A stretch of 52,402 nt of DNA from positions 1,049,749 through 1,102,150 of the forward strand of contig NZ_GL622296.1 in the NCBI RefSeq assembly GCF_000185385.1, in the 5' to 3' direction. This document shows positions 34,287 through 48,585 of the stretch, one piece after another; position 1 is the first letter of the stretch; each line of letters opens with the position of its first letter. A model generated the notes under the pieces. That model saw nothing but the letters and a program-made list of their open reading frames with translations, searched no databases and was not told the DNA's origin. The translations under genes and the position numbers were made by a program. The DNA is from Lachnoanaerobaculum saburreum DSM 3986 (GTDB lineage Bacteria; Bacillota; Clostridia; Lachnospirales; Lachnospiraceae).

Positions 34287-34337
34287 TAGATATTTAAACA
34301 GACAAGGGCATTGATCTGACGAATGGGGGTATGCTTC

Positions 34338-34899
34338 ATGCCGTTGCAGATTATCAGAAACGATATTACAAAAATGAGCGTTGATGCAATCCTCAATGCT
34401 GCCAACACTTCTCTTTTGGGCGGCGGCGGTGTGGACGGCTGCATTCACTGTGCCGCCGGACCGGAACTTCCGGAATCCTGCTATCGGCGGTGCGATTCAT
34501 CACATTGGAAATGTTCATAAGTATGTAAGACCGGAGGATGTACCGGAACATATAATGTTCGTAATCACTACGGACGTAATGGAAAATGCCGGCCGCCGGT
34601 ACAACAGCGAAAAAGTGAAGCAGATGATTGAGCGGCAGAAAGCAAAATATGGTTGGGAGTTTTTGTTTCTTGGTGACAATATTGACGCGGTAGAGACCGC
34701 AAGCACAAGTAAATGTTTTTTTGAGAATCCGGGGAATGATTCACTCCGATTTTTTCTTTGGCAGGAACTTATGTTAAAGCATCCGGAACGGATGCACAGC
34801 CCGATGCAGCAGGCAGCGTTCTATGGAGATTGGGAAGTTTCCACAACAAGCAGGGCTTTTGTGTCAAGAAAATCGCTCAATATTTGGCATAACTTTTGA
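34338..34899 (+). pseudogene. Chimeric remnant: macro domain start joined to VWA-domain end
   Basis: The first about 45 codons from the ATG after GGGGG read [19 protein letters not shown] then [15 protein letters not shown] and AAGPEL, the start of an ADP-ribose-binding macro domain. At about 34475 this breaks off and another frame (open from 34381) gives [35 protein letters not shown] and KYGWEFLFLGDNIDAVETA, which is the last part of a VWA-domain protein common in Lachnospiraceae. Neither half is complete. The following segment up to the stop (PERMHSPMQQAAFYGDWEVS) is not recognised. Confidence 0.65.
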
Positions 34900-34987: not shown

Positions 34988-35215
34988 ATGGATTTCATGA
35001 CGATTAAGCAGGCTTCTGAAAAATGGGGCATCTGCACAAGGAGAGTACAGACATTATGCACGGAAGGGCGAATTGATGGTGTCGAGCGTTTAGGCCATCA
35101 GTGGGTCATTCCTATTAACGCCGAAAAGCCGAAGGATGCCAGAATCAAAAGCGGCAGATACATTAAAACAAAATCCGGGAATGGAGAGGACGAAGATGGA
35201 AAGAAAATCGTATAG
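34988..35215 (+). CDS. Small helix-turn-helix protein heading the BREX operon
   Basis: 75 residues. Residues 1-50 form a MerR/excisionase-like DNA-reading domain: TIKQASEKWGICTRRVQTLC then GRIDGVERLGHQWVIP, followed by a basic tail. Its end overlaps brxA by 20 bases, so both are made from one mRNA. It is likely the operon's local regulator. A weak promoter candidate (TTGTTC 34906, TATAAA 34928, 16-base spacer) lies upstream. Firmicutes BREX loci often carry such a leading HTH gene; its role here is inferred from position. Confidence 0.7.
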   Translation: MDFMTIKQASEKWGICTRRVQTLCTEGRIDGVERLGHQWVIPINAEKPKDARIKSGRYIKTKSGNGEDEDGKKIV

Positions 35216-35804
35216 TGCCGGAGCAGTGAAATTTTCGTTCTGGTTCATGGAATTTCGGAAAACCGTGCAGCTTTTGAGTGAGGGTGAGAGCTTTGTAGAC
35301 ATTAAAAAGTTGAATGAAGAGACAAATATTTATGGCGCACCGACAAAACTGCGAGCGCAGCAGATTTATTCTACTGTAACAGCCCGTATCAAGACGTTAG
35401 ATGAAAGCTTTTACCCAATCTTTTTGAGCAGTGATCTTGCTACACAAAAATTATTTGTGCTGACTGCGGCTCTTTTGCATGACACGCTGTTCTTTGATTT
35501 TGTGTATGAAGTAGTGCGGGAAAAAATGATTCTTGGTTCCGATGAGCTGACGGATGCAGATATCCGGATATTTTTCAAAAATAAGCAGGAACAGAGTGAG
35601 AAAGTGGCTTCTCTTCAAGACTATACGCTGCGCCGTCTCGGTTCCTGCTATAAAACACAGCTTTATGAAGCAGGACTTTTAGAAAGCAACCGGGCAAACA
35701 GCACAAGAAAAATACTGAAGCCAATTCTTGATATTGCATTTGAACATTGGCTTTATGACAATGATCTTGGCATCATGGTAAAAACACTGACGGGGGTAAG
35801 ATGA
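35196..35804 (+). CDS. brxA: BREX protein BrxA (DUF1819)
   Basis: 202 residues, the normal size, all-helical. YSAGAVKFSFWFMEFRKTVQ at the start and LTAALLHDTLFFDFVYEVVR in the middle match the DUF1819 inner-membrane-like/NusB-like fold family that opens type 1 BREX operons. BrxA is a small DNA-binding accessory needed in some BREX systems. Start taken at the ATG 5 bases after GGAGAGGA; an earlier in-frame ATG lies inside the HTH gene. It ends one base before brxB. Confidence 0.88.
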   Translation: MERKSYSAGAVKFSFWFMEFRKTVQLLSEGESFVDIKKLNEETNIYGAPTKLRAQQIYSTVTARIKTLDESFYPIFLSSDLATQKLFVLTAALLHDTLFFDFVYEVVREKMILGSDELTDADIRIFFKNKQEQSEKVASLQDYTLRRLGSCYKTQLYEAGLLESNRANSTRKILKPILDIAFEHWLYDNDLGIMVKTLTGVR

Positions 35805-35805
35805 A

Positions 35806-36426
35806 ATGGACAAGGTGAATTTCTCCGCAGGAGAAAGAGAAGGTGGCCTGGGCCATCTAAGCCAAAGACTGGATGAGATGGAGCTTGCAATCCATAAGCC
35901 GTCTTTCCGAAAAGGAACAGGCCGCGCAAATGAGGTCAACTATTGGGTGTTTGATTATCCACCGGAAAAGGAACTGGAAGTTAGGGAGCGCGTAGAGTAT
36001 CTGAAAAATAAGAACGACCGGGGCGATGATGATTTTGAGCTTGTGGTCTTTGACCTGTATGATATCATCATTGACTTTTTGGAAAAGAAGAACTTCATGG
36101 AAAAGTGCTATGACTTTGAAAAAAAGCGAGGAATCGAGCGTATCGTCAAGGCAGTGACCAACTCCATGAAGGTAAATGACGATGACAGCCTGATCGTGCA
36201 ATATATCAAAGAACATACGCCGGAGAATGCAGTCGTGTTCCTAACCGGTATCGGCAAGTGCTATCCGATTTTGCGCTCCCACAAGGTGCTTAACAACTTG
36301 CACCAGGCATTTGTGCGCTGCCCGATCGTGATGTTCTTTCCGGGAACCTATAATGAACAGGAGCTGATTCTGTTCAATGAGATTAAAGACGATAACTATT
36401 ACCGGGCATTCCGACTGGTAAAGTAA
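35806..36426 (+). CDS. brxB: BREX protein BrxB (DUF1788)
   Basis: 206 residues with NYWVFDYPPEKELEVRERVE, VVVFDLYDIIIDFL-like, AVVFLTGIGKCYPILRSHKVLNNL and VMFFPGTYNEQEL, the diagnostic DUF1788 blocks. It is essential in studied type 1 BREX systems, biochemical role unsettled, and is thought to bridge BrxC and PglZ. Tight spacing on both sides. Confidence 0.9.
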   Translation: MDKVNFSAGEREGGLGHLSQRLDEMELAIHKPSFRKGTGRANEVNYWVFDYPPEKELEVRERVEYLKNKNDRGDDDFELVVFDLYDIIIDFLEKKNFMEKCYDFEKKRGIERIVKAVTNSMKVNDDDSLIVQYIKEHTPENAVVFLTGIGKCYPILRSHKVLNNLHQAFVRCPIVMFFPGTYNEQELILFNEIKDDNYYRAFRLVK

Positions 36427-36444
36427 TGGATGGAGGAAACTGTT

Positions 36445-39400
36445 ATGCAGATCAAGGACATGTTCCGAAAGAAAATTGACCGTGAAATACAGGGTGTTAT
36501 CATTGTCGGTCAGGGTGAAGAAACGAATGTGGCGCAGGAGCTGGAAGAGTATGTTGTGACCCGTGAGCTTCAGCGTCATTTTGCAGATTTCTTTGCAGCA
36601 TATAAAAAAGGTATTCAGGGAACCACACCGAAAATGGGCGTCTGGATTTCCGGCTTCTTTGGAAGTGGTAAATCTCATTTCCTGAAAATTCTGTCCTATC
36701 TGCTTCAGAATAAACAGGTCGGAGACAAACATGCCATTGACTACTTCATTGAGGATCAGAAGATTACCAATCAGATGGTGCTGGCAGATATGCAGTTGGC
36801 AGCAAACACCCCATCGGACATAATTCTTTTCAACATTGATTCCAAAAGCGATTCCAATGGCAAGGAAAACAAAGATGCCATTGTGAACGTGTTCCTGAAG
36901 GTATTCAATGAGATGCAGGGCTTCTGCGGTTCCATGCCGCACCTTGCCGACCTGGAGCGCAGGCTTTCCGAGGAAGGTCGTTTTGAAGAGTTTAAGGAAA
37001 AGTTTGAAGAAGAGCATGGCGATCCGTGGGAAAGCTCTCGTCAGGACTTCGATTTCATTCAGGATTCCGTTGTCGATGTTCTTTCTGACATGGATTTCAT
37101 GAGCGAATCAGCTGCCCGTAACTGGTGTGAGAAAGCAACTGAGGGCTACCAGATCAGCATTGAGGATTTTGCCAAGCGTGTGAAATCCTATATTGATAAA
37201 AAAGGTAACAACCACCATGTTGTTTTCCTTGTGGATGAGATCGGTCAGTACATTGGTGATGATTCCAAGCTGATGCTGAACCTTCAGACAGTGACGGAAG
37301 AACTGGGCAAGGAATGCATGGGTAAGGCTTGGGTAATCGTAACGAGCCAGCAGGATATCGACTCCATTACCAAAGTGAAGGGTAACGACTTCTCCAAGAT
37401 TCAGGGACGTTTCGATACCCGTCTTTCTTTGTCCTCTGCCAATGTGGACGCTGTTATCAAAAAGCGTATTCTGGATAAGACTGAGACCGCAGCACAGAGC
37501 CTGCGTCTGCTCTATGACCAGAAAGCAACCATCATCAAAAATCTGATTGTCTTCAACGACGGTGTGGAGAAAAAACTGTACGCCAATGCGGAAGATTTTG
37601 CAGAGGTTTACCCGTTTGTTCCCTACCAGTTTAATTTGCTTGCCAGCGTGCTGACCAGCATTCGTACCCACGGTGCATCCGGTAAGCACCTGTCCGAGGG
37701 TGAGCGTTCCATGCTGGCGCTGTTCAAAGAGTCTGCCATGCAGCTGATGGACGATGAGATGGGGGCAATCGTGCCGTTCTATCGGTTCTATGATGCTTTG
37801 GAGAACTTCCTCGACCACAGCCACAGCAGCGTGATCATTCGTGCTTATGACAACAGCTACATCAACCCGGAAAAGAAGGAAAAAGATGTCTTTGCGATCA
37901 ATGTGTTGAAGACCCTTTTCCTGATTAAATATGTTCTGGAGATCGAAGCCAGCGTGGACAACATCGTCAGCCTGATGATTACCAGCATTGACGATGATCG
38001 CATCTCTTTGAAAGCACAGGTGGAAGATGCACTGAAAGTGCTGATGCGCCAGATGCTGATCCAGAAGAATGGCTCCATCTATGTATTCCTGACCGATGAG
38101 GAACAGGAAATCAACAACGAAATCGAAAAAGAAAATGTGGAGATGCCGGAGGTCATCACGAAGATTGCGGAGATGATCTATGAGGACATTTTCTCCAGCA
38201 AGAAGTATCATTACCCCAGCTTTGGTGGACGATATGCGTTCTCCTTCAATCAGACAGTGGATGACCGCCCCTATAAGGCAAACCAGAATTACGATATCGG
38301 CCTCCGTGTGTTGACCCCGTGGTATGAGGGCGGCACCGATGATGGTACGCTGTGCCTGCTCTCCGGCCAGGGCAAGGAAGTCCTTGTGGTTCTGCCGAAT
38401 GATGATGCGTTCCTGACGGAAATGCGGGCATACTTGAAAATTGAGCGGTTCCTGCGCAAGAATACTTCTGTGCAGCTTGCCAAGTATGAGACCATTAAGG
38501 AAGCAAAGCGCGTGGAGATGCGGGAACGCAACGGTAACGCCAAGCTTTACCTGACGGAAGCTCTGAAAGAGGCTACCATCTATGTCAATGGCGATGTGCT
38601 GCACACTTCCGGTAAGGAAGTGACCAGCCGTATCAACGAGGCTATCGGCCGACTGGTGCAGACGGTTTACCACAAGCTGTCCTACATTGACGCAGCGATG
38701 GGCGAAGCAGACATCCGGAAGATGTTCAAGACCAGCAACCAGCTGTCGCTGGCACTGGGAGATACCGGAGAATCCAATGTCCACGCATTGGATGATGTGC
38801 TGCAATTTGTGGCAAGCAATTCCCGGATGCACATGAAAACTTCTATGAAAACCATCAAGGATCGCTTTATGAAAGCACCCTATGGCTTTGTGGAAGATGA
38901 CATCCATTGGTTGGTGGCACGGCTCTTTAAGCGTGGAGATCTGTCCTTTGCGGTCAGCGGTGAGAGCGTCAATCTGAACAACCGTTCCGAAGAAGAAATC
39001 ATCGGATACATCACAAAGAAGCAGTTTGTGGATAAACTGCTGACGGAAGTGCGCGTCCGTGTGCCGGAAAACCAGAAAAAGGCCGTTCGCACCGTGATGA
39101 AAGAGCTGTTCAAGATGACGCCGCCTGCCGATGACGAAGATACCATCATGAAGAACTTCCAGCACTATTGTGAGAATCGGATCACCGAGATCGAGCGGCT
39201 GGAACCGAAATATGAGAATTATGCCTATCCCGGAAAAGAACTTCTGGAAAAGGGCAAGAAGCGGATTTTCGCCCTGGTGCAGATTCAGGCACCGCTGGAA
39301 TTCTTTAAGACCGTATTTGACGAGCAGGACGATCTGATGGATTTTGGCGAGGACTATGAGCCTATCCTCAATTTTTTTGACAGTGAACAGCTGCCCATCT

Positions 39401-40098
39401 TCACCCGTGCGTTGGATATGCTGAATATCTACGAAGACAGTAAGACCTACATCGTGGATGCGGAACTGGAAGATGTGGTGGCCAAAATGCGCACCATCGT
39501 CCGGATGGCGAAGCCCTACAAGGAAATTCCGAAGCTACCGGAACTGCGCGAAAAGTTTATGAACTGCTATATGCGTATTCTGGAAGAGCAGGCAGAGCCG
39601 GTCAAGGATTCCATAGGTCAGGATCGGAACCGTGTCTTTGAAGTGCTGAACACCAAGCCTTATAAGGATACAAAGTTCAACCGCTATCTGGAGCTGTTTA
39701 AGGAGATTATGGACGGTGCAGAGAACTGCAACAATGTCTCTACGCTGCGTAGTTTTGCAGATAAGGCGGAGGCCTTGAAACTGCGACTGCTCAATGAGAT
39801 GACGGCAGAAGATAACCGCCTTGCAAAAGAAGCAGCGGCAAAGGCCGAAGCAGAGCAGAGGCGCCAGGAAGAAGAGGCGAAAAAACGCGGCGAGACCGTG
39901 AAACCGGCAGAAAAGGTCGCGGAACCGCAGCCGGTATATAAGGTGCGCACCACGAAGAATGTTTCCATCAAAACGGTTGCCAAGACTGCATCGTGGCGAC
40001 TGGAGAGCAAGGATGATGTTGATAAATACCTTGCTGCATTGCGTGAAAACCTGCTGAAAGAGATGGACGAAGATACAATCGTCAACATTGAACTATAA
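36445..40098 (+). CDS. brxC: BREX ATPase BrxC (PglY-like)
   Basis: 1217 residues. Walker A at about 70-78 (ISGFFGSGKSHFLKIL), then VVFLVDEIGQYIGDD as Walker B with the acidic pair, and VIVTSQQDIDSI as sensor region. The remainder is long helical sequence with an Ala/Glu/Lys-rich coiled coil near 1120-1160. BrxC/PglY proteins form large ATPase assemblies central to BREX exclusion and host methylation. I start at the ATG with GGAGG at 8 bases, giving MQIKDMFRKKIDREIQGVI, rather than 15 bases earlier. From here the GC content rises well above the host background. Confidence 0.92.
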   Translation: MQIKDMFRKKIDREIQGVIIVGQGEETNVAQELEEYVVTRELQRHFADFFAAYKKGIQGTTPKMGVWISGFFGSGKSHFLKILSYLLQNKQVGDKHAIDYFIEDQKITNQMVLADMQLAANTPSDIILFNIDSKSDSNGKENKDAIVNVFLKVFNEMQGFCGSMPHLADLERRLSEEGRFEEFKEKFEEEHGDPWESSRQDFDFIQDSVVDVLSDMDFMSESAARNWCEKATEGYQISIEDFAKRVKSYIDKKGNNHHVVFLVDEIGQYIGDDSKLMLNLQTVTEELGKECMGKAWVIVTSQQDIDSITKVKGNDFSKIQGRFDTRLSLSSANVDAVIKKRILDKTETAAQSLRLLYDQKATIIKNLIVFNDGVEKKLYANAEDFAEVYPFVPYQFNLLASVLTSIRTHGASGKHLSEGERSMLALFKESAMQLMDDEMGAIVPFYRFYDALENFLDHSHSSVIIRAYDNSYINPEKKEKDVFAINVLKTLFLIKYVLEIEASVDNIVSLMITSIDDDRISLKAQVEDALKVLMRQMLIQKNGSIYVFLTDEEQEINNEIEKENVEMPEVITKIAEMIYEDIFSSKKYHYPSFGGRYAFSFNQTVDDRPYKANQNYDIGLRVLTPWYEGGTDDGTLCLLSGQGKEVLVVLPNDDAFLTEMRAYLKIERFLRKNTSVQLAKYETIKEAKRVEMRERNGNAKLYLTEALKEATIYVNGDVLHTSGKEVTSRINEAIGRLVQTVYHKLSYIDAAMGEADIRKMFKTSNQLSLALGDTGESNVHALDDVLQFVASNSRMHMKTSMKTIKDRFMKAPYGFVEDDIHWLVARLFKRGDLSFAVSGESVNLNNRSEEEIIGYITKKQFVDKLLTEVRVRVPENQKKAVRTVMKELFKMTPPADDEDTIMKNFQHYCENRITEIERLEPKYENYAYPGKELLEKGKKRIFALVQIQAPLEFFKTVFDEQDDLMDFGEDYEPILNFFDSEQLPIFTRALDMLNIYEDSKTYIVDAELEDVVAKMRTIVRMAKPYKEIPKLPELREKFMNCYMRILEEQAEPVKDSIGQDRNRVFEVLNTKPYKDTKFNRYLELFKEIMDGAENCNNVSTLRSFADKAEALKLRLLNEMTAEDNRLAKEAAAKAEAEQRRQEEEAKKRGETVKPAEKVAEPQPVYKVRTTKNVSIKTVAKTASWRLESKDDVDKYLAALRENLLKEMDEDTIVNIEL

Positions 40099-40118: not shown

Positions 40119-43100
40119 ATGAACAAGACAGCCATAAAAAATTTTGCGATCTGGGCGCGGAATAAGTTGATTGCAGATGTTAGCTATGATGCCCGACTGA
40201 TCGGTATTATGGAGGACGGCATTGCAAAGCCGCTGCCGCAGAGCTTCGGCGACACCCAGTTCTTCGATATCGGCACTGCAAAACCGTATTCGATTTCCGG
40301 CGAGGCCGTGCGTAAGCGTGACAAGCTGATAGAGGTTATTCAGCAGAAGGAAAAGGATACCGACTACAAAACCGCATATCAGTATGTGATCAAGGAGGTT
40401 GCCTATACATGGTTTAACCGCTTGATCGCGATCCGTTTCATGGAGGTCAACGACTATCTGCCTTCCCATATCCGAGTGCTATCTTCCGAGAGTGGTAAGC
40501 TGGAGCCGGATTTGGTTACAACACCGTTTGACGCAGAGCTGCCCTTCACTGCGGAGGAAGAGGCTCAGATTTTTAAGTGGAAACAGGACAACAAGCTGGA
40601 TGAGGTGTTCCGCATCCTGTTCCTGAAACAGTGCAACGCACTGAACGAAATTCTGCCTGCTCTGTTTGAAAAGACGAAGAACTACACCGAGCTGTTGCTC
40701 AGCCTGTCCGTCATTGACCAAGATGGTGTAGTCTATCACCTGATCCACGATATCCCGGAGGATGACTTCAACATCGAGCGCGGTGGTCAGGTAGAGATCA
40801 TCGGCTGGCTGTACCAGTATTACAATACCGAGCCGAAGGCCGCTGCATTTGCCAAGAACGGCAAGATCACCAAAGAGGAAATCCCTGCTGTAACCCAGCT
40901 GTTCACCCCAGACTGGATCGTCCGCTACATGGTGGAGAACAACCTGGGCCGTCTGTGGGTGGAAGGACACCCGGACTGCGGCCTGAAAGAAAACTGGAAA
41001 TACTATCTGGAAGAGGCACAGCAGGAGCCGGAAGTGCAGGTGAAACTTTCGGAAATTTGTAAAGAATATTCCGCCCTGAACCCGGAGGATATAAAGCTCA
41101 TCGACCCCTGCATGGGTTCTGGCCATATCCTCGTATACGCCTTTGATGTGCTGATGCAGATTTACGAGAGTGCCAGTTACAGCCAGCGTGATGCTGCAAA
41201 GAGCATTCTGGAACATAATATTTACGGTTTGGACATTGATGACCGCGCCTATCAGCTGGCGTACTTTGCTGTGATGATGAAAGCCAGACAGTACAACCGC
41301 CGTATCTTAAACGGCGAGAACACCTGTCATGTCTATGCCATTCAGGAGAGCAACAGCATCAACCGTTTGCACCTGAAATATTTCGGTGCAGGGATGGACG
41401 ATATCGAGAAGAACGCCGCTAAGATGCAGATGGAAGGCCTGCTGGACACCCTGACGGATGCCAAGGAATACGGCTCAATCCTGAATGTGGAGAACTATAA
41501 CTGGGAATTGCTGCGCCAATTTGTGGCAGCAGAAGATACCGCAGGGCAGATCAGCATGGACAGCGTAGGCGTGGAAGAAACCGCCGAACAGCTGAATCGG
41601 CTTATTGATATTGGCGAGACGATGGCGCGGAAGTATTGGGTGACTTGTACGAATCCGCCGTATGCCGGAACCAGTAACCTGAGCGCAAAGGTCAACAATT
41701 TTGTAAAGAAAAATTATCCGGACAGCAAAGCTGATTTGTTCGCTGTGTTTATTGAGCGTTGCCACCAGATGACCTTAGTCAATGGTTTTCAGGCAATGAT
41801 TACCCAGCATAGCTGGATGTTCCTTTCCAGCTTTGAGAAGCTGCGTGAAAAGATGATGCTGAGCGAGACCGTCAATATGGCGCATCTGGGCGCAAGAGCC
41901 TTTGAAGAAATCGGCGGTGAGGTGGTGCAGACCACCGCGTTTGTGCGCTGTGCAAACCATGTGGAGGGATATAAGGGCACCTATTGCCGCCTGATTGAGC
42001 CGACCTCCCAGCATGGAAAAGAGGAGATGTTCCTTGCAGGGCAAAACCGCTATACCGCAAATCAGGATGATTTTGCGAAGATTCCGGGTAGTCCACTAGC
42101 CTATTGGGTTGCACAAGCTGTTTTTAAATTGATGGCAGAAGAAAAGTTAGAGGGGAAGTTCTTATCTGCTGGAAGATTCAAATCCTGTAATGATGAACTT
42201 TATTTAAGGCTTTGGTGGGAGCCGATATGTAAATCAACACATTGGCATCCCTATTGTAAAGGAGGAGATGGAAGGAAATATGTGGGCAATGAAGTGAGGC
42301 TTATTAACTGGACAGAAGAAAGCCAAAGATATTATAAAGATAATGGTGGCGTTGGAAATAAAGAGTTTTGGGAAAAAGAAGGTATTACATGGGCGACGAT
42401 AACTACGTCTAAGCCGTCGTTCCGAAGAAAGCCATCGAACTATTTTTGGAGTTCATCTGCTCCAACGATTTTTCATATTCAAGGAGCGGAGTTAACAGGA
42501 TATTTAGCGTATTTGAACTCAAAGCCTGTTGAGTATATTCTGGGGGTATTAAATCCCACGGCGAGTCTCACTGTGGCTGATGTTTTGAAATTACCATACA
42601 AAGAAAACTGGAACACATCAACAAATCAAAACCTCGGAAATGAGAATGAAAGAATTTGTCGCCAAGATTGGGATTCTTTTGAAACAAGCTGGGACTTTAA
42701 GGTACACCCCCTTGTGAACATGAGCAAAGGTTTATGGGATGCTACGGCTACGGCCGCTGCTATGGATTACTTTTATGGCTACAAGCCAGAAGTGAGCTGC
42801 CCGCTGGAAATTTGCTATTTATTGTGGCAGGGACAGTGCAAGGAGCGTTTTGAAAAGTTGAAAGCCAACGAAGAAGAGCTGAATCGCATTTTTATTGACA
42901 TTTACGGCTTGCAAGACGAGCTGAACCCGGAAGTGGAAGAGAAAGATGTGACCGTGCGCAAGGCTGACTTGCAGCGGGACATCAAGAGCCTGCTAAGCTT
43001 CTCGGTGGGCTGTATGTTTGGCCGTTACTCGCTGGATGTGGAAGGACTGGCCTATGCAGGCGGCGAGTGGGATAGCAGCAAATATCAGAGCTTTATCCCA

Positions 43101-43748
43101 GATGCCGACAATGTTATCCCTATCACCGATGAAGAATATCTGGACGATGATATCGTATCGCGCCTGTGTGCATGGCTGAAAGCGGTTTACGGCGCCGATA
43201 CACTGGAAGCAAACCTCGATTATATCGCAAAAGCCCTCGCCAATAAGGGCAGCACCAGCCGAGAGATCATCCGTAATTACTTCCTGAACGATTTCTTCAA
43301 GGATCACTGCCAGACCTATTCTGTTACCGGTTCCGGCAAGCGTCCGATCTACTGGCTGTTTGACAGCGGCAAGCAGAACGGCTTTAAGGCACTGGTTTAC
43401 CTGCACCGCTATACGCCGGATACCATCGGCAACCTGCGTATCGACTACCTGCACAAGATGCAGCGCGTATATGAATCCGAGATCAACCGGATGCAGGATA
43501 TGATGGATCACAGCGAGAATGCCCGTGAGGTGGCAGCAGCCGGGAAGCGTAAGGATAAACTCGCCAAGCAGCTGAAGGAATGTCGGGAATACGATGAGAA
43601 GATCAGCCATCTGGCACTTTCTCGCATCGAGCTTGACCTCGATGACGGCGTAAAGGTCAACTACCGCAAGCTCCAGACTGCGCAGGACGGCAAGTTCTAT
43701 GAGGTTCTGGCAGACAGCAAGAATATTATGGTGAAAGAGAAGAAATAA
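40119..43748 (+). CDS. pglX: BREX adenine-specific DNA methyltransferase PglX
   Basis: 1209 residues, normal for PglX. SAM-binding motif I is DPCMGSGHILVYAFD (about 329) and the catalytic motif is TCTNPPYAGTSN (about 512), typical of N6-adenine methylases. It marks host DNA at a non-palindromic site and takes part in phage exclusion. The segment of about residues 660-867 (42.1-42.72 kb) is clearly AT-rich with different codons, against GC-rich sequence on both sides; it falls in the presumed target-recognition region. AGGAGG lies 10 bases before the ATG. Confidence 0.92.
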   Translation: MNKTAIKNFAIWARNKLIADVSYDARLIGIMEDGIAKPLPQSFGDTQFFDIGTAKPYSISGEAVRKRDKLIEVIQQKEKDTDYKTAYQYVIKEVAYTWFNRLIAIRFMEVNDYLPSHIRVLSSESGKLEPDLVTTPFDAELPFTAEEEAQIFKWKQDNKLDEVFRILFLKQCNALNEILPALFEKTKNYTELLLSLSVIDQDGVVYHLIHDIPEDDFNIERGGQVEIIGWLYQYYNTEPKAAAFAKNGKITKEEIPAVTQLFTPDWIVRYMVENNLGRLWVEGHPDCGLKENWKYYLEEAQQEPEVQVKLSEICKEYSALNPEDIKLIDPCMGSGHILVYAFDVLMQIYESASYSQRDAAKSILEHNIYGLDIDDRAYQLAYFAVMMKARQYNRRILNGENTCHVYAIQESNSINRLHLKYFGAGMDDIEKNAAKMQMEGLLDTLTDAKEYGSILNVENYNWELLRQFVAAEDTAGQISMDSVGVEETAEQLNRLIDIGETMARKYWVTCTNPPYAGTSNLSAKVNNFVKKNYPDSKADLFAVFIERCHQMTLVNGFQAMITQHSWMFLSSFEKLREKMMLSETVNMAHLGARAFEEIGGEVVQTTAFVRCANHVEGYKGTYCRLIEPTSQHGKEEMFLAGQNRYTANQDDFAKIPGSPLAYWVAQAVFKLMAEEKLEGKFLSAGRFKSCNDELYLRLWWEPICKSTHWHPYCKGGDGRKYVGNEVRLINWTEESQRYYKDNGGVGNKEFWEKEGITWATITTSKPSFRRKPSNYFWSSSAPTIFHIQGAELTGYLAYLNSKPVEYILGVLNPTASLTVADVLKLPYKENWNTSTNQNLGNENERICRQDWDSFETSWDFKVHPLVNMSKGLWDATATAAAMDYFYGYKPEVSCPLEICYLLWQGQCKERFEKLKANEEELNRIFIDIYGLQDELNPEVEEKDVTVRKADLQRDIKSLLSFSVGCMFGRYSLDVEGLAYAGGEWDSSKYQSFIPDADNVIPITDEEYLDDDIVSRLCAWLKAVYGADTLEANLDYIAKALANKGSTSREIIRNYFLNDFFKDHCQTYSVTGSGKRPIYWLFDSGKQNGFKALVYLHRYTPDTIGNLRIDYLHKMQRVYESEINRMQDMMDHSENAREVAAAGKRKDKLAKQLKECREYDEKISHLALSRIELDLDDGVKVNYRKLQTAQDGKFYEVLADSKNIMVKEKK

Positions 43749-43769: not shown

Positions 43770-44252
43770 ATGATTTTGTACCATGGAAGCAATGTTATCG
43801 TAAAACAACCGAAATTTATCCGGCAAAATCGCTATCTGGACTTCGGTTTTGGATTTTATACCACCACCAACCGCGATCAGGCAGTGAACTTTGCTCAAAA
43901 GGTCACTGACCGCCGCAAAACAGGAGCTGCTACGCTGAATATTTATTCCGTAGAGGAAGCTGTGGCTTTCAAGGAGTGCAGTTTGTTGCGCTTTGACAGC
44001 CCAGATGAAGCATGGCTGGATTTTGTAGCTGAGAACCGTCAGGGAACCTATCAGGGAAAGCAGCATGACCTGATTTATGGTGCTGTGGCAAATGATGATG
44101 TGTACCGCACCATTACCCTGTATACGACCGGAGTGTTGGATAAGGAACAAACACTGGCGGCACTCAGGATTCGGAAATTGTTCAACCAGCTGGTGTTTGC
44201 AACTGAGAAGTCTCTGCAATACTTGTATTTTGAAGGGAGGGAGCTTGTATGA
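43770..44252 (+). CDS. DUF3990-like protein, ADP-ribosyltransferase fold
   Basis: 160 residues. ILYHGSN at the start (His5), then LDFGFGFYTTTNRDQAVNFA (Tyr30) and a C-terminal FNQLVFATEKSLQYLYF. His in the first strand and the FG.GFY.T strand are the first two landmarks of the ADP-ribosyltransferase fold (H-Y-x class); the third catalytic position is not clear here. DUF3990 proteins are uncharacterised. It lies between pglX and pglZ in the same direction with an AGGAGG site and overlaps the next gene by 4 bases (ATGA). It may be an effector or toxin held in check by its neighbours; this is inference from fold and layout. Confidence 0.72.
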   Translation: MILYHGSNVIVKQPKFIRQNRYLDFGFGFYTTTNRDQAVNFAQKVTDRRKTGAATLNIYSVEEAVAFKECSLLRFDSPDEAWLDFVAENRQGTYQGKQHDLIYGAVANDDVYRTITLYTTGVLDKEQTLAALRIRKLFNQLVFATEKSLQYLYFEGRELV

Positions 44253-44488
44253 ACGAAGATCAGTTCAGCGCAATGCTTGCAATCATTGTGCCGCCCATCA
44301 TCGAACAGATTACAAAAAACAGCAATGTGGATGATGAAAAAGCGATTTCCCGCTTTTATCAGTCCAAGCTCTATCAGGAACTTTCGGATGAAAAATCAAA
44401 ATTGTGGCACTACAGCCCGATGACGCTGTATACCATGTATCAAGATGAACTTCTAACAGGCTCCTATGATTACCCGGAGGAGGCGTGA
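44249..44488 (+). CDS. Small protein of the DUF3990/DUF3791 module
   Basis: 79 residues, helical and acidic, with IIVPPIIEQI near the start and FYQSKLYQELSDEKSKLWHY in the middle, ending DYPEEA. I recall similar small proteins beside DUF3990 and DUF3791 genes in clostridia but know no function. It is translationally coupled to the gene before it and followed after 3 bases by the DUF3791-like gene, so the three are a unit. It could be an antitoxin or a partner subunit. Confidence 0.65.
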   Translation: MNEDQFSAMLAIIVPPIIEQITKNSNVDDEKAISRFYQSKLYQELSDEKSKLWHYSPMTLYTMYQDELLTGSYDYPEEA

Positions 44489-44491
44489 GAG

Positions 44492-44713
44492 ATGAGCAAA
44501 GAATCCAATTTTTTGATTTATTGCATGGAGCGGTACCGTCATTTCAAAGGGCTTTCCGGTGCGGATGTGGCAAAGACCTTTGAAGAGTATGGCATCTATG
44601 GGTATATCATAAAGTATTTTGAATCACTGCACACAATGGGGGATCATTGCATCGTGCAGGATATTGACGATTATATTAGTAGCATCACAGGCAACAAACG
44701 GATCAAGGCGTAA
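44492..44713 (+). CDS. DUF3791-like small protein
   Basis: 73 residues. FLIYCMERYRHFKGLSGADV then FEEYGIYGYIIKYFESLHTM and IVQDIDDYI fit the DUF3791 family pattern (short helical proteins of about 65-75 residues). Function unknown. Frequent pairing of this family with DUF3990 proteins suggests a toxin-antitoxin or effector-inhibitor relation. A gap of 54 bases follows before pglZ, the largest in the operon, consistent with a module inserted between pglX and pglZ. Confidence 0.7.
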   Translation: MSKESNFLIYCMERYRHFKGLSGADVAKTFEEYGIYGYIIKYFESLHTMGDHCIVQDIDDYISSITGNKRIKA

Positions 44714-44767: not shown

Positions 44768-47290
44768 ATGGCAGAATTGAACCTGAAACAAATTATAGAC
44801 CGCCTGAATGCGGAATTTACCGGGGAGACCCGGAAACTGGTTTTCTGGTACGATGACAAGGCAGAATTTGCCGAGGATATGGAGACAGTGGAGCTTCAGA
44901 ATGCGAAGATCTACCATCTCCAGCCGGATAACCAGTTCTATACAAAGTATTTTCTGGAGCGTGTGGATAAGACCACGAATTATCTGATCTATGCACCGTT
45001 TCTGAAGCCGGATGTAAGGGACAACCATCTGGAAGACACTTGTGCTTATTCCAGACGGTTCTTTGCCGACCGAGCCTCCTTGCTGTCTGTTGACCTGGGT
45101 ATCGAGGAAAAGTACAAGCCGGTTATTGAGAAGCACATCAAGTTTTTCGCCAACAAAGAGCGCACTCAGCGGTTCTATGATTTGGAAATCGAAAACTTCA
45201 ATGAAGAAAATATCCTTGTCGGTCTGCTAAGTGCAGTCTGCAAGGCGCGTACCTGCTCTTTTGAGGAAGTCGTGCGCATCGTGTTGACGGATGGCGAGCT
45301 GGTGGACAATGCTTTCTTGCAGGAGTTTGAAAAATACGACCTGCTGTCTGCATTCTGGCAGCTCTGTGAGCAGCATTTCGGATACACCGATACAAAACCG
45401 AGTTTGGAACGGCTTTTGGTAACATTGTTCGTTACTTATACTGGGCGATATGTGCAGGCAGAGCTTCCGGCAGCATGGAAGAGCTTTGTCTCCTACAAGT
45501 CAGGCAATATTATCGCATTCCTTGATAGCCTGATGAACAGCGTTCTGTACAGGGACAAATACGACGCTCTGTCGGCACACGTTGCCAAAGGGCTGAATGT
45601 TTTTTCGGCATTTGCAGGAATGCGAGTGGACGATTTGATGGAGTGCGATACTTTCCTTGCTGTGGATCAGGTTCTGGTAAAGTGGCTCATTGGCAGACTT
45701 GTTTCGGAAGATATCGGTGCAATCGTAAACGGATTTACCATTCCGGAACTCTGTGAAAAACGGGCTAAAATGCACTTTGGAAGAAAGACCGGGAAGACAT
45801 ATCAGTTGCTTTCCAGTGCGTACAGCATGGTGAAGGAAGCGGATTACCATGCCGCAGATGGCTTAAAGCCAATTATCGACCGATATCTTGCTGCGGATTA
45901 CAATATGGATCAGCAGTATCGGAAATTCTACTATTATTATGACCAGCTGGAGAGTACGGAAAGTTTTGAGTCGCTTCGGGAACTGGTGGAAAATATCTAC
46001 ACGAACGAATATCTGGCATGTCTGCTCCCTGCTTGGAATGCCGGAATCCAGACAGACGGCGCATTTTCTGCAATTCCGTTGCAGCGGGAGTTTTACAATA
46101 CAAACCTGCGATATACAAAAGAACGCACAGTGGTCATCATTTCGGATGCCATGCGTTACGAAGTTGGACAGGAATTGTTTGCCCGAATGCAGGATGACCC
46201 GAAATGCACGGCAAAACTTTCTGTACAGCTGAGTGTCCTGCCGTCTTATACAAGGCTCGGCATGGCAGCAGTTTTACCGCATAAGACACTGGAGATGACG
46301 GATGATTTTCAGGTGCTGGCAGATGGTATTCTTTGCGATAACCTGGCAGGTCGGCAGCAGGTGCTGCAAAACTATAACCCGGATAGTGTCTGTGTGCAGT
46401 TTGATGATATCAAAAACCTGAAAGTGGCAGAGCTGCGAGATGTGCTGACAAGACGTCAGATTATCTATGTATATCATAATCAGATTGACGCGCGCGGAGA
46501 CAAGGCAAACACCGAGGACGAGGTGTTTAATGCGTGCGAGGAAGCCGTTCAGGAAATCATGGATTTGATCCATCGAGTCTCCGTCAGCGGCAACACCTAT
46601 CATTTTATCGTCACTGCCGATCATGGCTTTATTTACAATCGTGATAAACTGACAGAAAGTGACAAAATTTCCGGGAAAAGCGCAGAAAAAGCATTTGTCA
46701 ATCGCAGATTTATTGTGTCCAAGGCGGCACTGGAAGATGACGGCATCGACCATATGAGCATGGGACGTGTTCTGGGAAACGAGGACAGCAAGGTGGTGTC
46801 CTATCCAGTCAGCAGCAATGTCTTTAAGGTGGCCGGAGGCGGTGCTAACTATGTGCATGGCGGTTCCTCACCGCAGGAAATGCTGGTGCCGGTGCTGGAG
46901 TTTAAGATGGAGCGCGGTCACATGGAAACAAAGAATGCAGAGATTGCTCTGGTCAGCATTGTCCATAAGATTACGAACCTGATCACGTCCATGGACTTTA
47001 TTCAGCCGGACGCCGTTAGCGATACTGTAAAAGCTGCAAAATACCGCATTTTCTTTATCTCGGAGGACAATGAGAAAATCTCGAACGAAAACAGTTATGT
47101 GGCGGATAGCCGGGAAGAAAATGCGCAGAAGCGTATCTTCCGGATGCGGTTCACATTCAAGAATAAGAAATACGACAAGGACAAGCAGTATTACCTTGTG
47201 GTTTACGACGAAGAAAGCGGTCTGGAGCAGTGGAGGCAGCCTGTCATCATGGACATTGCCTTTGCAGATGACTTTGGATTCGGATTCTGA
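44768..47290 (+). CDS. pglZ: BREX alkaline-phosphatase-like protein PglZ
   Basis: 840 residues. The alkaline phosphatase superfamily core is in the second half: RTVVIISDAMRYEVGQELF (metal Asp about 461), LPSYTRLGMAAVLPH with the nucleophile region, and VTADHGFIYNRDKL (about 616). The N-terminal RKLVFWYDDKAEFAEDME block is also typical. PglZ is a hallmark of all BREX types and is a metal-dependent phosphoesterase/nuclease in recent work. AAAGGAA precedes the ATG. Confidence 0.93.
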   Translation: MAELNLKQIIDRLNAEFTGETRKLVFWYDDKAEFAEDMETVELQNAKIYHLQPDNQFYTKYFLERVDKTTNYLIYAPFLKPDVRDNHLEDTCAYSRRFFADRASLLSVDLGIEEKYKPVIEKHIKFFANKERTQRFYDLEIENFNEENILVGLLSAVCKARTCSFEEVVRIVLTDGELVDNAFLQEFEKYDLLSAFWQLCEQHFGYTDTKPSLERLLVTLFVTYTGRYVQAELPAAWKSFVSYKSGNIIAFLDSLMNSVLYRDKYDALSAHVAKGLNVFSAFAGMRVDDLMECDTFLAVDQVLVKWLIGRLVSEDIGAIVNGFTIPELCEKRAKMHFGRKTGKTYQLLSSAYSMVKEADYHAADGLKPIIDRYLAADYNMDQQYRKFYYYYDQLESTESFESLRELVENIYTNEYLACLLPAWNAGIQTDGAFSAIPLQREFYNTNLRYTKERTVVIISDAMRYEVGQELFARMQDDPKCTAKLSVQLSVLPSYTRLGMAAVLPHKTLEMTDDFQVLADGILCDNLAGRQQVLQNYNPDSVCVQFDDIKNLKVAELRDVLTRRQIIYVYHNQIDARGDKANTEDEVFNACEEAVQEIMDLIHRVSVSGNTYHFIVTADHGFIYNRDKLTESDKISGKSAEKAFVNRRFIVSKAALEDDGIDHMSMGRVLGNEDSKVVSYPVSSNVFKVAGGGANYVHGGSSPQEMLVPVLEFKMERGHMETKNAEIALVSIVHKITNLITSMDFIQPDAVSDTVKAAKYRIFFISEDNEKISNENSYVADSREENAQKRIFRMRFTFKNKKYDKDKQYYLVVYDEESGLEQWRQPVIMDIAFADDFGFGF

Positions 47291-47313: not shown

Positions 47314-48585
47314 ATGGAAATGATGGATATGGCGGCAGACGATACCCGTGAAGAACTGCGTCAGAAGCTGCGCAGCAACTTTGACGGTCGGATCGTCCGC
47401 AAAGACCTGACAAAGAAAATAAAAGAAGGAGCGAATGTTCCGGTCTATGTGCTGGAGTTCCTGCTGGGTCAGTATTGTAGTTCAGACGATGAGACAATCA
47501 TTGAGCAGGGCGTTCAGAATGTGAAACGCATTCTGGCAGACAATTTTGTCCGCCCGGATGAGGCTCAGAAAATTCTCTCCCAGCTGCGCAAGAACGGGAG
47601 CCATACCATTATTGATATGGTGACCGTGCATCTGGACATCAAAAAGGATTGCTTTTTTGCAGAGTTCTCTAACCTTGGTCTCACCAATGTGCCGATTACG
47701 GATGATTATCCGGAAAAATATGACCGGCTGCTTTGCGGCGGTATCTGGTGCATCGTGCAGCTGGAATATGAATCCGAGGGAGACAGCAGCTTTGGAATCA
47801 CGGATATAGATGGACAGCCGATTTCTTCTAAACAGAAAAAGCAGAAGGATATCTCTCCCATCAGCATCCATAAGCTGACTCCGATTCAGATGCCCCATAT
47901 CGACATTGAAGAAGTTCGAGAGGGACGCAAGGCATTCACACAGGAAGAGTGGATGGATGTTATGTTGCGTTCCTGCGGATATGAGCCGGAACAGTTGAAC
48001 AATCGGGAAAAATGGCTGCTGCTTGCGCGTATGCTGCCGTTGGTGGAGAACAACTTCAATCTCTGTGAGTTGGGGCCGCGCAGCACAGGCAAGTCCCATA
48101 TCTATAAAGAAATCAGCCCGAACAGTATCCTGGTATCCGGGGGTCAGACGACCGTTGCAAATCTGTTTTACAATATGGGACGCAAAACCGTAGGGTTGGT
48201 AGGCTTATGGGACTGCGTTGCCTTTGATGAGGTTGCCGGAATCAAGTTTAAGGACAAAGACGGCATTCAAATTATGAAAGACTATATGGCTTCCGGCTCC
48301 TTTGCCCGCGGCAAAGAGGAAAAGGCAGCATCGGCTTCTATGGTCTTTGTAGGAAACATCAATCAGAGCGTGGATGTGTTGCTTAAGACTTCCTCTCTGT
48401 TTGACCCGTTCCCGCCGGAGATGGGAACGGACACCGCCTTTCTTGACCGTCTGCATTGCTACATTCCAGGCTGGGAGATTCCGAAGTTCCGTCCGGAGCA
48501 TTTTACCAATGATTACGGCTTTATCACGGATTATCTGGCAGATTTTATACACCTATTTTTTTATATTTTTTATACTGTTAAATAG
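47314..48585 (+). pseudogene. brxL: BREX Lon-like protein BrxL, truncated after the AAA+ domain
   Basis: The first about 411 codons are good BrxL: LRSNFDGRIVRKDLTKKIKE at the start, Walker A ELGPRSTGKSHIYKE (about 253), Walker B WDCVAFDEVAGI (about 302), sensor VFVGNIN and FLDRLHCYIPGWEIPK. After DYGFITDYLADF the frame runs into AT-rich DNA and ends within 12 codons (IHLFFYIFYTVK). Whole BrxL proteins are near 650-700 residues and finish with a Lon-type domain carrying the Ser-Lys dyad, here absent. The breakpoint near 48547 matches the abrupt change in base composition. BrxL works as a ring-shaped DNA-binding ATPase, so the stub may or may not assemble. Confidence 0.88.

Follow-up and report, generated by a model that had tools for sequence, protein, structure and literature searches.

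What are three small, tightly coupled genes doing inside a phage defence operon? The question is raised by Lachnoanaerobaculum saburreum DSM 3986 (assembly GCF_000185385.1, contig NZ_GL622296.1, positions 1,049,749 to 1,102,150), whose 52,402-nucleotide stretch analysed here is referred to as the window. In this window, a type 1 BREX (bacteriophage exclusion) operon carries, between pglX and pglZ, a trio of genes on the forward strand, of which genes 1 and 2 overlap by 4 bases and genes 2 and 3 are separated by 3 bases. The original prediction, made from the DNA letters, described the trio as an ADP-ribosyltransferase (ART)-like effector with its inhibitor, linked to BREX; the coordinates, strand, overlap and gap on which it was built are borne out by the open reading frames. 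We favour, with a probability of roughly 0.7, the view that the trio is a self-contained toxin-antitoxin (TA) type module, gene 1 encoding an ART toxin and genes 2 and 3 its inhibitors, which is lodged in an accessory slot of the BREX operon. As such, it adds an ordinary though well-supported case to a candidate already catalogued, with a toxin of the ART type and what are probably its antitoxins.

A predicted ADP-ribosyltransferase and its two small partners

Gene 1 matches DUF3990 over nearly its full length (Pfam, E 7e-49, 165.9 bits versus a cut-off of 32.2). The description of this family as uncharacterised holds at the bench, as far as we found, whereas its membership in Pfam's ART clan had already been recorded (PMC7955679, in the portion available). 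The predicted structure of gene 1 (predicted local distance difference test score 92.3) adopts an ART fold, and nearly all of its 50 structural matches are ART-fold proteins, judged by title, with the ParT toxin closest, RES and exotoxin-A-like toxins following, and MbcT also among the good matches. Model and matches therefore agree with the fold that had been proposed from motifs, while a PDB sequence search with the gene 1 alignment returned no ART match (best E 0.021, all six matches looking implausible). Across 42 aligned sequences, H5 is nearly invariant and Y30 and Q140 are invariant; we take these residues, from known motifs and strand order, to occupy the H-Y-E positions of PARP enzymes, with Q rather than E at the third position. 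Gene 1 would thus encode an NAD+-using ART toxin, the fold coming from structure prediction, the H-Y-Q triad from alignment, and activity and toxicity being the probable corollaries.

The same triad leaves some room for a different chemistry. Gene 1 might be an NAD+ glycohydrolase that depletes NAD+ instead of transferring ADP-ribose, in a module otherwise as described above, and we hold this to be a possible but less probable reading. Q stands at the third active-site position in 42/42 aligned sequences, and RES and MbcT, both NAD+-degrading toxins, are among the good structural matches; however, ParT, which ranks first among the matches, is titled a transferase, and the NADAR genes found beside three relatives fit the transfer of ADP-ribose onto a base.

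The assignment of gene 3 to DUF3791 stands at the Pfam E-value given in Table 1, so that the hidden Markov model search placed genes 1 and 3 in the families first proposed for them, and gene 2 in none above the Pfam cut-off. NCBIfam returned no family over its cut-off for any of the three. The Pfam scan of genes 2 and 3 yielded no helix-turn-helix (HTH) family and no Xre-type partner, and matched neither the NADAR nor a macrodomain family. Gene 2 is linked to DUF3990 by its own distribution: in genomes up to G299, 34 of 65 gene 2 places have a listed DUF3990 gene no more than 800 bases away, in every case with gene 2 downstream and on the same strand, and the other 31 have none nearby, in part owing to a broken gene 1 or to a gene 1 match outside the listing. 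With a widened profile, a gene 2-like domain was found just downstream of DUF3990 in 29 of 31 loci (L001-L031), weak in two; in this tally, L025 had scored as lacking the domain solely through a second gene 1 match. Two intermediates with matches to both profiles raised the possibility that genes 2 and 3 are homologous, which is not claimed here: the profile comparison gave a probability of only 3.5, and the merging of the two families in an iterated search came with fused proteins included, few sequences being joined once the fusions were removed.

All three proteins match the models of the PADLOC candidate PDC-M13, and the trio has therefore already been catalogued as a phage-defence candidate, from which no sequence feature separates the window's copy. 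The three proteins of a second BREX-borne module (L107, discussed below) match these models as well, and PDC-M10 and PDC-M42 are also among the closest catalogued candidates. Such candidates were identified through their embedding in known defence systems (PMC12988326, in the excerpt available), and a rumen survey of 6530 genomes and assembled genomes lists 3324 instances of PDC-M13 (PMC13356809, likewise in excerpt). In our literature search, PDC-M13 appeared just as this survey count, and we found no account of its function, of its fold or of a TA nature. A predicted ART toxin, two partners and a TA-leaning pattern of decay render this frequent, unvalidated defence candidate directly testable.

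A lead to the target comes from NADAR genes, which adjoin DUF3990 modules in three loci (L036, L188 and L203); in 55 chosen genomes, at least 2 of 10 NADAR genes neighbour such modules, the remaining eight having been inspected in part. According to the available part of PMC11543638, NADAR enzymes strip ADP-ribose from guanine and serve as the antitoxin in DarTG1. Because of this activity, guanine-containing nucleic acid is one lead for the ART target. It might not extend to the module of the window, since the DUF3990 protein nearest to NADAR in L036 is of the PDC-M42 kind and that of L203 looks alike by eye; the window's genome has no NADAR match at E 1e-5.

A cassette of three genes with toxin-antitoxin features

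A scan of genome contigs found 44 relatives of gene 1, among which the three-gene order is kept in 43, with gene 1 incomplete in several, and the remaining relative (L073) runs into the end of its contig. The relatives come from several phyla and include Blautia and other Lachnospiraceae, other Clostridia, Bacilli, Gastranaerophilales, Margulisiibacteriota and Kiritimatiellae; within the order of the window's genome, DUF3990 occurs in 103 of 295 genomes and DUF3791 in 77. Between the window and three other BREX-borne copies, the ratio of nonsynonymous to synonymous substitution rates of gene 1 is 0.09, 0.16 and 0.19, and gene 2 has zero amino-acid changes, a pattern indicating purifying selection on the trio, which together with the conserved order argues that the arrangement is not due to chance. 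In a DNA alignment of nine copies, four of them BREX-borne, the similarity begins with gene 1 and stops with gene 3; beyond these limits, the five non-BREX copies are unlike the BREX copies. The alignment points to an autonomous cassette that moves as exactly three genes and that here would have settled in the pglX-pglZ interval. Many stand-alone trios (L047-L054 and L056) are accompanied by an additional gene of 101-104 amino acids (aa) that ends where gene 1 starts; it is absent from the window, and the one example scanned has no Pfam family.

The trio displays a hallmark of TA systems, namely adjacent, co-directional and coupled small genes conserved as a unit, and the effector/inhibitor relationship is further supported by natural fusions, by the decay of gene 1 and by a relative on a conjugative plasmid. 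Fusions of gene 3 to gene 1 occur in three loci of two genomes (L187, L188 and L189, with both Pfam domains confirmed in L187), of gene 2 to gene 3 in L148, and of gene 3 to gene 2 in L168/L198. One DUF3990 gene of another branch is followed by a protein ending in an Xre-type HTH (L213), and a further DUF3990 gene is itself fused to such a domain (L217). Relatives of gene 1 are also present in 70 plasmid records, 60 of which come from Bacteroides, Phocaeicola, Parabacteroides, Butyricimonas or Segatella; the Bacteroides plasmid pBF9343, typed as conjugative, bears a fused gene 2-gene 3 beside DUF3990, with a zeta toxin gene after one intervening gene. Two side observations concern fused forms. 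Genome G288 holds two distinct DUF3791-DUF3990 fusions in separate loci (L187 and L188), one of them adjoined by a NADAR gene. In five loci (L191, L192, L193, L204 and L205), a fused gene 3-gene 2 of 135-137 aa has no ART match in about 10 kb around it, beside apparent cobalamin genes in L191-L193 (by eye), and is perhaps a domesticated antitoxin.

Decay falls mainly on gene 1. Among 21 loci found via gene 2 (the best 20 matches plus two new loci, G254 being dropped at a contig edge), 12 carry a full-length gene 1, 7 a broken one, with only a doubtful 22-residue trace left in one of these, and 2 none, whereas gene 3 is full-length in all (loss 9/21 versus 0/21, Fisher p 0.0013). In the set found through gene 1, gene 1 is broken and its partners are intact in five loci (L043, L045, L071, L072 and L074), of which L043 and L071 lie in a common neighbourhood and L074 repeats the locus of G389; the opposite case, gene 3 broken while gene 1 is present, is confined to a single locus (L058). 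Two considerations weaken the inference of a toxin that is lost selectively: the loci are partly dependent, the window and G373 belonging to one lineage and three loci coming from one genome, and, gene 1 being about 2.2 times as long as gene 3, the probability that all nine losses fall in gene 1 by chance is about 0.04. Because of this difference in length, the decay is suggestive, not proof. Taken together, the linkage kept across relatives, the fusions seen in nature and the apparently selective loss of gene 1 suggest that genes 2 and 3 are inhibitors, small proteins (gene 2 strongly acidic) that would bind the toxin and keep it inactive.

Among known systems, ParST, RES-Xre and MbcTA likewise combine an ART-fold toxin with an adjoining presumed inhibitor and are represented among the best structural matches, but genes 2 and 3 have no HTH, the Xre-type partner occurring just beside the L213 branch. 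DarTG1 (DarT1-NADAR) also has an ART toxin, and NADAR adjoins some DUF3990 modules; however, the NADAR or macrodomain antitoxin of DarTG1/DarTG2 is not in the trio, the only such sequence being a macro-domain fragment about 9 kb upstream. DUF3990 also occupies a toxin position in the C-terminal domain of Serratia marcescens Rhs5, with a predicted immunity gene downstream (PMC4524185, in the part available), where, unlike the trio, it serves as a secreted competition toxin.

A cassette with these properties could also be a selfish addiction element for which the BREX operon is merely a safe, expressed landing site, without any contribution to defence. We regard this as possible but less likely, although it agrees with much of the distribution: many stand-alone copies lie amid housekeeping genes (by eye), one relative, close to a zeta toxin gene, is carried by a conjugative plasmid, and gene 1 decays while its partners stay. 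When 64 of 120 listed neighbour proteins were taken for a PADLOC scan and 56 left out, no model had more than three matches among the families listed (25 of 115), with three for PDC-S01 ATPases and one each for a type I methyltransferase and a specificity subunit (both L036), AbiEi and PDC-S72. On the other hand, the 27 PglZ places have two DUF3990 genes besides the window's at a distance of up to 20 kb, against about 0.2 expected in all, albeit none within 10 kb, and individual cases occur in a type I restriction-modification (R-M) locus (L036) and on viral contigs. In the former (L036:10001-15351), the trio lies directly upstream of hsdM and hsdS of the R-M system. The same locus continues with a second DUF3990 module (PDC-M42A/B), which is accompanied by a NADAR gene.

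The pglX-pglZ junction and the BREX link

The statement that core type 1 BREX has no genes between pglX and pglZ needs correcting for this class, where the junction is frequently occupied. An insert of more than 250 bp is present in 20 of 29 readable BREX loci from the order of the window's genome and in 10 of 20 elsewhere in the class (30/49 overall). The survey comprised 33 pieces around PglZ from the order and 20 from the rest of the class, most partial genes at contig ends being passed over, and the count omits L118, L128, L130 and L131, whose pieces hold no PglX. By Pfam, the inserts include Schlafen AlbA_2, Fic, Abi_C, AAA_15/AAA_21-type ATPases, YhcG, AbiEii, AbiH and MNT-HEPN, and several match no Pfam family. 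The junction is a general accessory slot, and its repeated occupation by abortive-infection or TA genes makes it a simple place to seek backup layers of BREX. BrxU, a type IV restriction enzyme, is likewise a non-core effector within a type 1 BREX operon, but its gene lies between brxC and pglX (PMC8565348, in the part available), whereas the trio lies at pglX-pglZ.

DUF3990 modules occupy two of the 49 junctions, namely L119, which is of the window's own lineage, and L107. In the latter, the genes run DUF3791, DUF3990, gene 2-like, with 4-base overlaps each, and PglZ is 33% identical to that of the window. The 20 BREX loci outside the order gave no trio match. About 0.008 DUF3990 genes would be expected in the inserts (about 0.18 listed per Mb, with each genome taken as 2.8 Mb and the inserts together as about 45 kb), a rough figure, the window's lineage being there by ascertainment. 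Among the matches listed (150 DUF3990 places), DUF3990 lies within 20 kb of 3 of 27 PglZ places including the window, against 0.2 expected; the two others are 13 and 19 kb away, and within 10 kb there is only the window's, against 0.11 expected. These few cases, above expectation, indicate that DUF3990 reaches BREX somewhat above chance and that BREX is a minor home for it.

The distribution of the cassette itself tells the same story. BREX genes stand beside only four of the 44 relatives (L032, L033, L034 and L038), in sequence pieces that are sometimes just a few kb long, and these four and the window form one BREX lineage, with BrxA, BrxB, BrxC, PglZ and the shared part of BrxL 95-100% identical where present. 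PglX is just 57-77% identical across the same five copies, as if the specificity gene had been swapped. A close BREX allele with an empty junction was not found, the next PglZ after 97% being 71% identical. The link to BREX proposed in the original prediction is therefore weak: one further independent recruitment among the 49 readable loci favours it, whereas BREX adjoins just four of the 44 relatives, all of one lineage. The fail-safe that accompanied this proposal, triggered by disturbed methylation or a disturbed operon, is a guess that no observation made here supports.

In its strongest form, a BREX-specific fail-safe would have BREX proteins or PglX methylation silence the ART, which phage inhibitors of BREX would then release. 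The trio's place within the operon, 21 bases from pglX, is compatible with such coupling, as are a different DUF3990 module with another gene order in the same slot of a distant BREX (L107), the recurrent presence there of abortive or TA genes (AbiE, MNT-HEPN, AbiH, Abi_C, Fic), and the retention of the trio in the BREX lineage with an unchanged gene 2 protein. We nevertheless judge it improbable. No BREX gene is near 40 of the 44 relatives, in pieces sometimes of a few kb, and genes 2 and 3 are present in 39 of these 40, so the toxin would hardly depend on BREX for its silencing; by eye, the proteins of BREX-borne copies do not differ markedly from those of stand-alone copies; and such a module occupies just 2 of 49 readable junctions. 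Similarly doubtful is a broader version, in which the pglX-pglZ interval is a docking slot for swappable suicide modules and the DUF3990 ART a guard released when a phage inhibitor blocks BREX, possibly ADP-ribosylating guanine; if true, the population would pay with one cell upon BREX inhibition. Literature matches on BREX with ADP-ribosyltransferases, toxin-antitoxin or accessory genes include, by title and among those listed, none on this module, and a 2026 BREX survey describes nuclease backup effectors, the string 'ADP-ribosyl' being absent from its available text (PMC12839542).

In the reading that we favour, a self-contained TA type module, the trio is most likely transcribed with BREX, because only 21 bases precede the start of gene 1, and infection or loss of the operon might tip the balance, whereupon the freed ART would halt growth; the outcome would be abortive defence or maintenance of the BREX operon in the population.

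Layout of the BREX locus and adjoining fragments

The trio begins 21 bases after the end of pglX and is followed by pglZ, at the coordinates given in Table 1.

Table 1. Coordinates in the window of the trio and of the surrounding type 1 BREX genes
Feature	Position	Strand	Description and evidence
gene 1	43770..44252	+	160 aa, DUF3990; predicted toxin with ADP-ribosyltransferase fold; H5, Y30 and Q140 conserved
gene 2	44249..44488	+	79 aa, acidic, isoelectric point 4.3, predicted antitoxin subunit; PADLOC PDC-M13B E 1e-28, alignment
gene 3	44492..44713	+	DUF3791, 73 aa, predicted second antitoxin subunit; Pfam E 2e-19, PADLOC PDC-M13C E 3e-34
brxA	35136..35804	+	Pfam BrxA E 7.5e-57
brxB	35806..36426	+	Pfam BrxB E 2e-43
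brxC	36430..40098	+	three Pfam BREX_BrxC domains
pglX (brxX)	40119..43748	+	methyltransferase; PADLOC PglX 1430.7 bits
pglZ	44768..47290	+	Pfam PglZ E 1.6e-53
brxL	47314..48585	+	5' part only, interrupted; residues 1-413 of 706, ending 48552

The remainder of brxL (residues 406-706) lies about 9.2 kb downstream on the same strand, past the end of the window (G000:C1:1107503-1108405), and this split makes an intact, working BREX doubtful here. The two parts share 8 residues, which suggests a short direct repeat, and a third brxL fragment is located at C1:1773421. On the other side, just before the BREX operon and about 9 kb before the trio, an apparently broken N-terminal fragment of a macro domain, which binds ADP-ribose, is found at 34323-34517.
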